From: Rhizobium sp. Q54
GTDB lineage: Bacteria; Pseudomonadota; Alphaproteobacteria; UBA828
Direction of reading: 5' to 3'
DNA: 35,316 nt
NCBI GenBank assembly: GCA_945892755.1
Contig: CAMDDO010000030.1
Span: 1-35,316, forward strand
In this document: positions 25,132 through 29,686 of the stretch, one piece after another
Numbering within the stretch: the stretch's first letter is position 1
Layout: each line of letters starts with the position of its first letter
Translations under genes and position numbers: made by a program
Notes under the pieces: model-generated
Told to the model about the DNA's origin: nothing
Databases searched by the model: none
The model's input: only the letters and a program-made list of their open reading frames with translations

Positions 25132-25160
25132 TTGTCGGTTAAGCGGCTTCACGGTATCTC
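25132..25160 (+). promoter_or_regulatory. Possible leaderless promoter for ubiA
   Basis: TTGTCG (25132-25137), a 17-bp spacer and TATCTC (25155-25160) end eight bases before the ATG at 25168. The -10 match is only moderate. The geometry equals that seen at hldD and the marR gene, and no Shine-Dalgarno is present. Confidence 0.35.
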
Positions 25161-25167
25161 CCATGCC

Positions 25168-26073
25168 ATGACATTGGAATCCAGCCCTTCGGACTTCATG
25201 ACGAAGGCGGGCCCCTTCGAACGGCTCGCGCCGCGCGCGCTGAAGCCCTATGTCGCGTTGATCCGGCTGGATAAGCCGATCGGCACATGGCTCCTGCTCT
25301 GGCCGGGTTTCTGGGCGGTCGCGCTCGCCGCCGAGGGCTGGCCCGACGGACGCCTGCTCGGCCTGTTCGCCGCCGGCGCGCTCATCATGCGCAGCGCCGG
25401 CTGCATCTATAACGACATCGTCGACCGTAAGTTCGACGCCATGGTGGCGCGCACCCGAAATCGTCCGCTCGCCTCGGGCGCGCTCAGCGTGCGCCACGCC
25501 ATCATCTTCATGGCGCTCCTGCTGGCCGCCGGCTTGGCGATCCTCGTGCAGCTTCATTGGCTCGCGATCGTGCTTGGCGCGGGCTCGCTCGCCCTTGTTT
25601 TCACCTATCCCTTGATGAAGCGAATCACCCATTGGCCGCAGGTGTTCCTGGGCCTCACCTTCAACTGGGGCGCGTTGATGGGCTGGGCCGCCGCGACCGG
25701 CACGCTCGACTGGCCGGCCGGCCTCCTCTATCTCGGCGGCATCTTCTGGACGCTCGGCTATGACACGATCTACGCGCATCAGGACAAGGAGGACGATGCG
25801 CTGATCGGCGTGAAATCGAGCGCGCTCGCGCTTGGCGCGCGCACGCGACCGTTCCTGATCGCGGTCTATGGCCTAAGCCTTGCCACGTTCGGCGCGGCCG
25901 GCGCGCTACAGGGAATCGCATGGCCGTTTTATCTTGGCCTCGGCGTGGTCGCCGCGCTCTATGGCTGGCAGGCGCTCCTCGCGCGCTTCGACGACCCGGC
26001 CGATTGCCTCGCCAAGTTCAAGGCCAATACCTGGGTCGGCCTCGCGTTGTTCGCCGGCATCGTGGCGGGGTAG
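25168..26073 (+). CDS. ubiA: 4-hydroxybenzoate polyprenyltransferase
   Basis: An integral-membrane prenyltransferase attaching the polyprenyl tail to 4-hydroxybenzoate in ubiquinone synthesis. The 301-aa product has the first Asp-rich motif NDIVDRKFD (82-90: N82, D83, D86, D90), followed by RTRNRPLASG, and the second motif YDTIYAHQDKEDD ending at D210. About eight or nine hydrophobic segments surround them. A TTG at 25132 would give 12 more residues, but the ATG at 25168 is preferred. ubiD lies 2.1 kb downstream on the same strand, separated by two minus-strand genes, so the two are not one operon. Confidence 0.95.
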   Translation: MTLESSPSDFMTKAGPFERLAPRALKPYVALIRLDKPIGTWLLLWPGFWAVALAAEGWPDGRLLGLFAAGALIMRSAGCIYNDIVDRKFDAMVARTRNRPLASGALSVRHAIIFMALLLAAGLAILVQLHWLAIVLGAGSLALVFTYPLMKRITHWPQVFLGLTFNWGALMGWAAATGTLDWPAGLLYLGGIFWTLGYDTIYAHQDKEDDALIGVKSSALALGARTRPFLIAVYGLSLATFGAAGALQGIAWPFYLGLGVVAALYGWQALLARFDDPADCLAKFKANTWVGLALFAGIVAG

Positions 26074-26108
26074 GTGGCATAGTTTCCCAACCGATTTGAC
26101 TTGATCCG

Positions 26109-27635
26109 CTAATCTGGCCCCAGACCATTGTCCAGAACACTCACAAGGCGCATGACGGCGTCGCCGGAGAGTCTGGTCAAAATCACAGCACCGGTAACCA
26201 CCGCGCTGGCCATCGTGCCATAGGCCACATATTCGAGCAGCAGGTCTTCGATACCGTCATCATCAAAATCAGCACGGGCCAGCAGCGTGACGATCGTGCC
26301 GCCATCCTCGTCCTCATATTGGGCTTTGAATGGACCCTCATCAATGACGTTGAATGCCATTGGATGATCTGGCGTCACCCAAGACACGCCCTTTTGAGAA
26401 TCGACAATGTCCTCTTCGTAGTCCGACGAAGAAAGCGTTCCGCGCAGAATGGCCGGTAGGATGTCTGGCGCATTCTCGTCCAAACGAAATTCCTCTAGAA
26501 AGCTGACGCGCGAAGGGCTCGCCTTTTTCATGGCGGCAATCTCCGCGCAGTGAACGCCAAGTCCTACCAGGGCATTCCAGTTCATTTGGTACTGAACGCT
26601 GTAGCCGGCCTTGATCAACCGTTCAAAGTCGGCGCAGACCTTTATGTCCGCTTCCTCCGCCGCCACCCATTCCTGATCGATATACTGCCAGCCGCGCCCG
26701 ACCGTGAACGCATCGCCATCTGGATAAATAGGCGCCTGAAAAGCCTCGTCGATTTTATCCGGCGCCTTGATCGGCAAGTCTGGTGACCATCGCACCGGAA
26801 TCTCGTGGTTCGCCGCGGAACCAACGCGCCACGGCAAATCGGATAGTTGTGGCGCGCTCGGCGCGAGTGACCTTGTGAGTCCCCGCGAATAATTCTTTGC
26901 TACGCGTAAGACTTCGAAGCCCTCCGTTTGACTCAGAGCAAGCAGCCGGGTCCCGCGTCCACTCCCGCCGAATCGGGTGCGAACCGAAACCACCACGTCT
27001 TCAATGCCATCACGCGTGAAATCGCCCCAAGCAAGAAGTCGGAGCGTGGTCTCCTCGTTCCGCCACGCATACGCGGTATGATCGGGCCCAAGGACACGAA
27101 TCGCGGGTTCGATGTCCGGGCCGACGACCGTCTTCCAAAGATCGCGCCACGATTGCGGCGTTGGATCCCACTCAATTGATTCGGCCGCCAACGTCAATTC
27201 GGTATTCTCGGACTCGGCAATACCGCCTGGCAAACGGCTGGGTGCCGTTTCATCGAGCCGAAAGGATGCCAAGAAGCCTTTGGCGGCGGGACTTACCCGC
27301 CTGAGTAGGTGAATTGTGAAGCACGCTGACCCGAACTCACCAACCTCGTCGTATTGGGCCGGATCGGGCTCGTACTCGTTGCGCAGGAGATCGAAATAGC
27401 GCGCGCAATTATCCGCCACGGCTCGTGCCTCACCGGGAGACTCCCAATCGCCCCTCGCGCGAAATCGGATCGGCCTTTCCTTCAAAACCGGCCGCGTCCA
27501 GCGCTCGTCGATCTGATCGAGTGAATCGAGTTGAAGTGCCGGCGACCAGCGCACGGGAAATTCGCCGGCAATCGACGGCCCTGCCTGCATAAGGCCCAGG
27601 ATCGAACCGCCAACCAGCACGAGGCCGCGCCACAT
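26109..27635 (-). CDS. Exported protein of two homologous halves with DxDGIED motifs; function unknown
   Basis: A 508-aa protein of no recognised family. Residues 1-24 look like a Sec signal peptide (MWRGLVLVGGSILGLMQAGP, cleavage after SIA). The mature part is an internal duplication: FPVRWSP (26-32) is repeated as IPVRWSP (279-285), FRLDETAP (125-132) as FRLDENAP (383-390) and DFTRDGIED (205-213) as DFDDDGIED (456-464). Each half has a cysteine pair (C77/C105 and C334/C363), likely disulfides. The DxDGxED loops resemble calcium-binding FG-GAP/VCBS or EF-hand loops. The second copy is more acidic. Codon use is visibly less G/C-biased than that of its neighbours, suggesting acquisition. The frame opens earlier at 27719, but the 27635 ATG starts the signal peptide. 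Confidence 0.8.
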   Translation of the reverse strand: MWRGLVLVGGSILGLMQAGPSIAGEFPVRWSPALQLDSLDQIDERWTRPVLKERPIRFRARGDWESPGEARAVADNCARYFDLLRNEYEPDPAQYDEVGEFGSACFTIHLLRRVSPAAKGFLASFRLDETAPSRLPGGIAESENTELTLAAESIEWDPTPQSWRDLWKTVVGPDIEPAIRVLGPDHTAYAWRNEETTLRLLAWGDFTRDGIEDVVVSVRTRFGGSGRGTRLLALSQTEGFEVLRVAKNYSRGLTRSLAPSAPQLSDLPWRVGSAANHEIPVRWSPDLPIKAPDKIDEAFQAPIYPDGDAFTVGRGWQYIDQEWVAAEEADIKVCADFERLIKAGYSVQYQMNWNALVGLGVHCAEIAAMKKASPSRVSFLEEFRLDENAPDILPAILRGTLSSSDYEEDIVDSQKGVSWVTPDHPMAFNVIDEGPFKAQYEDEDGGTIVTLLARADFDDDGIEDLLLEYVAYGTMASAVVTGAVILTRLSGDAVMRLVSVLDNGLGPD

Positions 27636-27761
27636 GACGCACCCGCCATGGCGGTGGTGGTTAGCCGCACCAAGCGCGCCGACGCAATTCCACCGCCGAT
27701 TGGAACATACCATGAACATGCCGAAGGCGCAAGGGGAGCGAGCGGGCGATCAGGCCTTCGC

Positions 27762-28177: not shown

Positions 28178-29686
28178 ATGCCCTATGCCTCGCTCCGCGA
28201 TTTCATGGCCCGGCTCGAAGCGGCCGACCGGCTCCGGCGCGTCAAGGCGCCGGTCTCGCCGGTTTTGGAGATGACCGAGATTCAGACCCGCCTCCTGGCC
28301 GAGGGCGGGCCGGCGGCGCTGTTCGAAAACGTCGTGGGGGCGGGCGGGCGGCGTTATGACATGCCGATGCTGGTCAATCTGTTCGGCACGGTCGAGCGCG
28401 TCGCCTGGGGCATGGACCGCGAGCCGCACGAGCTTCGCGCGTTGGGCGAGACGCTCGCCTTCCTGCGCCAGCCCGAGCCGCCGGGCGGTTGGCGCGAGGC
28501 GCTTGAAATGCTGCCGCTCCTGAAAACGGTCATGACCATGAAGCCGAAAATGGTTTCGAGCGCGCCGTGCCAGGAGGTCGTGCTCGAAGGCGATGCGATC
28601 GATTTGGCGCGCCTGCCGATCCAAACCTGTTGGCCGGGCGAGCCGGCGCCCTTGATCACCTGGCCCTTGATCGTGACCAAGGGCCCGGGCGAGGCGCGCG
28701 AGGATAATTACAATCTCGGCATTTACCGTTTGCAGGTGACGGGTGCGCGCTCGACCTATATGCGCTGGCTCAAACATCGCGGCGGCGCGCAGCACCATGC
28801 GCGCTGGAAACAGGCGAAGCGCGAGCCGCTGCCGGCCGCCGCCGTGATCGGCGCCGACCCCGGCACCATCATCGCGGCGGTGGCGCCCGTGCCCGAGACG
28901 CTGTCGGAATATCAGTTCGCCGGCCTCCTGCGCGGCAGGAAGGTCGAGCTCGTGCGCTGCAAAACCGTGCCCCTTGCCGTGCCGGCGCAGGCCGAGATCG
29001 TGCTCGAAGGCCATGTCAGCCTGGATGAGCAGGGCGATGAAGGGCCCTATGGCGATCACACCGGCTATTACAACGCGGTCGAGCCTTTTCCGGTGTTCCA
29101 TATCAGCGCGATCACCATGCGGCGCGAGCCGATCTACCTCTCGACCTTCACGGGCCGCCCGCCCGACGAGCCGAGCGTGCTCGGCGAGGCGTTGAACGAA
29201 GTGTTCGTGCCGCTCTTCATCCAGCAATTCCCCGAGATCGTCGATTTTTGGCTGCCGCCCGAGGGCTGCAGCTATCGCATCGCGGTGGTCTCGATGAAGA
29301 AGGCTTATCCCGGCCACGCCAAGCGCGTGATGATGGCGGTATGGTCGTATTTGCGCCAGTTCATGTACACCAAATGGGTCATCGTGGTGGATGACGACAT
29401 CGACGCGCGCAATTGGAAGGACGTGATGTGGGCGATCTCGACCCGCATGGACCCGGCGCGCGACATCACCATTGTTGAAAACACGCCGATCGATTATCTC
29501 GATTTCGCCAGCCCCGAATCGGGCCTGGGCTCGAAGATCGGCTTGGATGCCACCACCAAATTACCACCCGAAACCAGCCGCGCTTGGGGTACCAAGATTC
29601 GCATGAGCGATGACGTGATCGAAACCATCAACAACAAATGGCCGAGCCTTGGGCTGCCCGGCTCGGGCCAGCCGATCTGGAAATAG
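28178..29686 (+). CDS. ubiD: UbiD family decarboxylase (probable 3-octaprenyl-4-hydroxybenzoate carboxy-lyase)
   Basis: A prenylated-FMN-dependent decarboxylase. The 502-aa length is close to that of E. coli UbiD (497). Conserved segments include [20 protein letters not shown] at the start, [11 protein letters not shown] (177-187), [20 protein letters not shown] (275-294, with candidate active-site glutamates E277 and E288), TGYYN and [14 protein letters not shown]. The presence of ubiA in the same window and the length support the ubiquinone role over other UbiD-type aromatic decarboxylases. The ubiX-type prenyl-FMN synthase it requires is not in the window. GAGGGAGA precedes the ATG. The SDR gene follows after 12 bp. 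Confidence 0.93.

Follow-up and report, generated by a model that had tools for sequence, protein, structure and literature searches.

The window analysed here, a stretch of 35,316 nucleotides from Rhizobium sp. Q54, carries a gene for an exported protein built from two tandem copies of an unnamed domain. With moderate confidence, we propose that this protein is an immunity-type inhibitor of T4/pesticin-type lysozymes, likely an orphan that was horizontally gained and that protects against the lysozymes of competitors. It is considered an orphan because no partner lysozyme lies beside the gene, and because the four lysozymes resident in the same genome belong to another clade and have exported partners of another family. 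The proposal draws on computed observations: the tandem repeat, a leader and two cysteine pairs read from the sequence, a predicted order of structural elements shared by both halves, the insertion of the gene, and the association of the domain with lysozymes. The features of the locus are as follows.

26112..27635 (-): open reading frame for the two-domain protein of 508 aa; ATG at 27635, stop codon at 26109-26111
27567..27635 (-): signal peptide as judged by eye from the sequence, residues 1-23
26811..27566 (-): domain copy 1 with linker, residues 24-275, from half-half alignment and AlphaFold2
26112..26810 (-): domain copy 2, residues 276-508, from half-half alignment and AlphaFold2
27321..27407 (-): Cys77 to Cys105, the pair predicted to form a disulfide in copy 1
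26547..26636 (-): Cys334 to Cys363, the pair predicted to form a disulfide in copy 2
26997..27023 (-): FG-GAP-like acidic loop in copy 1, DFTRDGIED at residues 205-213
26244..26270 (-): FG-GAP-like acidic loop in copy 2, DFDDDGIED at residues 456-464
26958..26972 (-): turn past the acidic-loop strand of copy 1, at residues 222-226; putative inhibitory loop, proposed by analogy
26202..26216 (-): equivalent turn of copy 2, at residues 474-478; putative inhibitory loop, proposed by analogy
26078..27758 (no strand): ~1.68-kb stretch missing from sister genomes G001 and G002

A candidate Shine-Dalgarno sequence, GGCGGG, was read by eye 6 bases upstream of the ATG. The neighbouring genes encode UbiA (25132-26073) and UbiD (28178-29686), both confirmed by Pfam, and a small frame without a Pfam name lies between the two-domain gene and ubiD.

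The preliminary description of this DNA had proposed a tandem duplication, and the two halves indeed align over ~230 residues with a local BLOSUM62 score of 183, compared with a mean of 32 and a maximum of 60 for 1000 shuffles of one half. The shared motifs it listed occur in order in both halves, with VRWSP at residues 28 and 281, FRLDE at 125 and 383, and D-F-x-x-D-G-I-E-D at 205-213 and 456-464, and the cysteine pairs (77/105 and 334/363) have the reported spacings of 28 and 29. Two details required correction. The halves, given as about 230-250 residues, measure ~252 and ~233 residues with the linker included, and although both carry the loop described as DxDGIED, its acidic third position is found only in the second. 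The claim of export agrees with a hydrophobic leader at the start of the 508-aa protein, judged by sequence; such leaders are also present at the N-terminus of homologues. Both halves retain both cysteines and the D-x-x-x-D-G-x-x-D loop of the domain family.

AlphaFold2 predicted the same element order for both halves rather than different folds. Copy 1 was modelled with a pLDDT of 86.0 and a pTM of 0.84 (linker model residues 232-255 fell below 50) and copy 2 with a pLDDT of 92.6 and a pTM of 0.90, from input alignments of 30 and 33 rows, respectively. The strands around the candidate turn span model residues 190-198 and 204-212 in copy 1, and 189-198 and 204-212 in copy 2. Neither half matched a PDB fold in Foldseek at E 0.001, nor did half 2, the half searched, match the viral fold library BFVD at that threshold. 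The best VIA results were 2p3p for half 1 (Z 4.8, rmsd 3.8, 90 residues) and 5yqq for half 2 (Z 4.3, rmsd 4.0, 90 residues). The Tsi1 complex entry 3vpj (Z 3.0, rmsd 3.7, 58 residues) was tied with unrelated rows. Since these lists mix unrelated folds, no fold was assigned.

Across the domain family, Asp occupies loop positions 1, 5, and 9 in 61/61, 59/61, and 57/61 rows, and Asn or Asp occupies position 3 in 54/61. This composition is that of FG-GAP calcium loops, a pattern that binds calcium in integrins. The resemblance to FG-GAP/integrin proteins (PF01839) lies in the loop DxxxDGxxD, and a profile search matched the integrin alpha-V loop at E ~1. Unlike FG-GAP proteins, the window protein has one loop per domain; its PF01839 match is a single stretch without repeated blades that scores 18.8 bits, below the gathering cut-off of 22.1. 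The earlier suggestion of calcium binding in the periplasm holds for the type of loop but not as the whole story: any calcium bound by the window protein would probably be structural rather than its function, and gene neighbourhoods point beyond calcium binding to inhibition of lysozyme-type cell-wall enzymes. Both cysteines are kept in 54/55 rows without an HNH fusion versus 2/6 HNH-fused rows (Fisher p 1.4e-4, with rows that are phylogenetically non-independent), as expected for a periplasmic disulfide.

Whole-protein searches of Pfam, NCBIfam, and PDB sequences gave no assignment for the window protein, and PADLOC gave no match; the domain is unnamed in Pfam, NCBIfam, and PADLOC. SaoC (NF040734; E 0.22) was dismissed as a chance match. 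XAC2610_fam (NF047539) did not match the window protein even at E 10; it matched 3/10 relatives at E 0.09-0.25 (12-13 bits, cut-off 35) and exceeded its cut-off in 0/115 genomes of the class. In viral contigs, none of 97 pattern stretches was confirmed as the domain, and the relative L055 had no match among phage records. The available portions of open-licence papers on lysozyme effectors, inhibitors, and immunity proteins contain no description of the family.

Homology searches recovered one-domain homologues, as the preliminary description had anticipated, in five named phyla: Pseudomonadota, Acidobacteriota, Myxococcota, Omnitrophota, and Poribacteria (by record title). The domain was found in 6/95 relatives searched (the window's own genome among the six), in 6/22 genomes of the order, 17/385 of the class, and 3/398 of the phylum, and in 8/369 genomes of a second class within the phylum; a scan of named genomes gave 34 loci. 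Many of these genomes were assembled from metagenomes, and misbinning may affect some of them, a possible example being L035, titled Acidobacteria, which clusters tightly with alphaproteobacterial rows. Three weak hits in the class (L021, L023, L024) are FG-GAP-rich proteins, as read from their sequences. At five alphaproteobacterial loci (L013, L015, L019, L022, L025), a single-domain gene lies 3' of a DUF1489 gene (by Pfam for L013, L019, and L022; by eye for L015 and L025), suggesting a fixed chromosomal site.

Phage_lysozyme was the commonest Pfam family among neighbouring ORFs (5 of 108, after removal from 112 of four ORFs of the doubtful locus L063), the genes being read as upstream and on the same strand. 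With a custom lysozyme profile, 17 of the 44 distinct loci outside the HNH/Poribacteria clade (45 entries, in which the window locus appears twice, once as L067) had a lysozyme no more than 700 bp from the domain, compared with 0/18 loci within that clade. The 17 loci come from 14 genomes or records. They include L127 on a weak lysozyme match (7e-6), and they exclude L130/L101, which has a Pfam lysozyme upstream; some of the other 27 loci are contig ends. Lysozyme density was 17 in 217 kb near the domain versus 4 in 486 kb further off, and 37 control loci without the domain (~185 kb, a set that excludes five further loci fetched by the lysozyme search itself) contained none. These counts are not fully independent of discovery because the lysozyme profile was built from loci first found beside the domain. 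Lysozyme and domain distances also correlate (r 0.56, 0/10,000 permutations, 16 loci, with L120 and L127 left out and L035, whose lysozyme is 2.1 kb away, included), a correlation to which shared species history could contribute.

Individual loci illustrate this pairing. In Pseudoalteromonas sp. THAF3, a lysozyme gene is followed by a domain gene with a 4-bp overlap at two loci; one has two domain genes in a row, and the other adjoins genes for an RHS toxin, an SMI1/KNR4 protein, and an immunity 49 protein. The N-terminal region of the Pseudoalteromonas lysozyme matches PG_binding below threshold. Genome G021, from the window's order, carries two separate tandem single-domain genes and a convergent lysozyme, showing how a fused pair could arise. 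One member of the family is fused to LprI, itself a lysozyme-inhibitor family.

Both window halves fall within a 13-row set of the domain tree in which six rows are lysozyme-adjacent (support 95/85); the tree drops hits that were too short (L063, the first piece of L120, L127), same-contig duplicates, and L048. The halves sit on long branches, and a sister relation between the two was not recovered. No lysozyme lies beside the two-domain gene, and a lysozyme search of the genomes with the closest single-domain homologues (G007, G010, G014, G018) found none. The window protein is therefore a homologue of the lysozyme-partnered family without paired status.

The deviant codon use noted earlier was borne out in a comparison with genes of the window. 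The two-domain gene has a GC3 of 0.644, below most of the window's other genes (htpX 0.845, rsmE 0.798, ubiA 0.856, ubiD 0.843, epimerase 0.805). Among the 24 frames compared, two have lower values (0.46 and 0.44) and one other has 0.66; first-position GC of at least 0.80 suggests that the two lower ones are wrong frames. In the sister genomes G001 and G002, which belong to the same genus and one of which has a UbiD 97% identical to that of the window, ubiA, the small gene, and ubiD are collinear, and the 1.68-kb stretch is replaced by 13 bp (G001) or ~31 bp (G002). Because two sister lineages lack it, the simplest reading is a recent gain in the window lineage, although the stretch may instead have been lost from both sisters. 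At the insertion junction (26056-26075), UbiA ends ~4 residues earlier than in G001.

These observations bear on the possibility that the protein is a general periplasmic calcium-binding or scaffold protein unlinked to lysozymes, with the linkage elsewhere marking a specialised subgroup. Many members do lack a nearby lysozyme, some of them at conserved housekeeping sites after DUF1489 (e.g. L022 and L025), and the widely conserved aspartates of the loop (61, 59, and 57 of 61 rows) would also fit such a role. However, both halves of the protein group in a supported set containing lysozyme-adjacent rows, and a recent insertion with low GC3 is ill-suited to a housekeeping gene, so we consider this explanation unlikely.

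The window genome also contains four lysozyme-like genes of its own (loci L141-L144), detected with the custom profile.

G000:C2:2221-2937 (-): resident lysozyme-like gene
G000:C26:8937-9596 (+): resident lysozyme-like gene
G000:C8:58535-59251 (-): resident lysozyme-like gene
G000:C11:4090-4800 (-): resident lysozyme-like gene

Each has low GC3, lies between housekeeping genes, and converges on a gene whose exported, cysteine-containing product belongs to a second unnamed family, with two tandem copies at one site. A profile comparison found no relation between this partner family and the window domain. The resident cassettes share short stretches of DNA among themselves and none with the window insertion. 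Pfam profile PF00959 at its cut-off matched 0/21 genomes of the family, a null result that is misleading given the four lysozymes recovered by the custom profile. With that profile, no lysozyme was detected in 20 of the remaining 21 genomes of the order, which leaves room for a reading in which the protein inhibits the cell's own peptidoglycan enzymes, or the four resident lysozymes, instead of foreign ones. We regard this as slightly less probable again, since the resident four form their own clade (SH-aLRT 99), each already has an exported partner of an unrelated family, and the window gene adjoins none of them.

Under the favoured reading, inhibition of foreign lysozymes, each half would form a disulfide-braced alpha+beta domain in the periplasm, with its acidic beta-hairpin loop holding a calcium ion and the loop after that hairpin blocking the active site of an incoming lysozyme. 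By analogy with XAC2610, the candidate blocking loops are the turns formed by residues 222-226 and 474-478. Fusion of two copies could confer a wider inhibitory range or greater avidity. Several results weigh against this reading: the window gene has no adjacent lysozyme, 27 of the 44 loci lack one within 700 bp, the DUF1489 sites of alphaproteobacteria have none, HNH- and FGE-fused members exist, the type VI marker is missing from the order, and neither the fold searches nor XAC2610_fam gave a significant match to a known inhibitor.

A close functional parallel is XAC2610 (X-Tfi) of Xanthomonas citri. In the part of its report available (PMC10933484), XAC2610 is the immunity protein against the lysozyme-like effector XAC2609, shares a beta-propeller topology with PliI and Tsi1, binds calcium in the crystal through a 9-residue acidic loop (residues 151-159), and has a Tyr170 predicted to enter the lysozyme active site. 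As far as that account goes, the domain family is likewise an exported partner encoded with a lysozyme-like effector, and likewise has a conserved 9-residue acidic loop followed by a hairpin loop. In contrast, the N-terminal part of the domain described here is helical and its cysteine pair is conserved, the sequence and fold searches gave no significant match, and the window protein combines two domains and lacks a partner effector.

Type VI orphan immunity proteins, such as SMDB11_2280 of Serratia marcescens Db10 (PMC10539506, from the text available), are similar in being immunity-type genes without a cognate effector, and are described there as protecting against non-self effectors. Those orphans lie in or next to effector-immunity loci, whereas the window gene stands alone and PF05943, the only type VI marker used, was found in 0/22 genomes of the order (the E. 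coli control was positive). TseP-TsiP and the WHIX double-blade systems, as far as described in the accessible text (PMC11893102, PMC12135965), likewise pair lysozyme-like effectors that attack peptidoglycan with immunity proteins, and some of these effectors require two. There, a two-toxin effector has two separate immunity genes; in the window, two inhibitor-like domains are fused.

Beyond the form with a leader and the domain, and the one in which the domain precedes LprI, the family includes members in which the domain follows an HNH nuclease or an FGE-sulfatase domain. HNH-fused, leaderless members occur at six loci (L017, L053, L058, L059, L065, L106). HNH exceeds the Pfam cut-off in L017 and was read from sequence similarity in the others, for which Pfam, where scanned, was silent or below cut-off. 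Restriction genes lie near L057, L058, L065, and L066, and adjoin L058 and L065. The HNH- and FGE-fused architectures indicate that the domain has roles beyond that of a periplasmic lysozyme inhibitor. That the domain serves in a defence or toxin system as a sensor or regulator acting on a non-lysozyme target, as the six HNH fusions and these four restriction neighbourhoods might imply, is improbable for the window protein, which has a leader, lacks a nuclease domain, and falls in another part of the tree.

More tentatively, and with some doubt, we suggest a broader picture: an unnamed family, spread over several phyla, whose exported members inhibit T4/pesticin-type lysozymes and have a fold unseen in the PDB. 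In this lineage the domain would have been fused head to tail as a mobile, orphan, two-specificity shield, and elsewhere it would have moved into the cytoplasm, attached to HNH nucleases encoded next to restriction systems. If true, a domain of five named phyla that is blank in Pfam, NCBIfam, and PADLOC would gain a name and a testable role. It would also bring to light lysozyme genes missed by the standard Pfam profile, and provide a naturally occurring example of immunity-type genes that are tandemly fused and travel without their effector.

Two further arrangements were observed. At the Myxococcaceae loci L047 and L049, a large protein encoded ~7 kb from the domain gene has a lysozyme-like region at its C-terminal end. 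In Poribacteria (L041, L044, L046), the domain is C-terminal to an FGE-sulfatase domain (Pfam scans covered L041 and L046), and some of these proteins have cytochrome-like regions.
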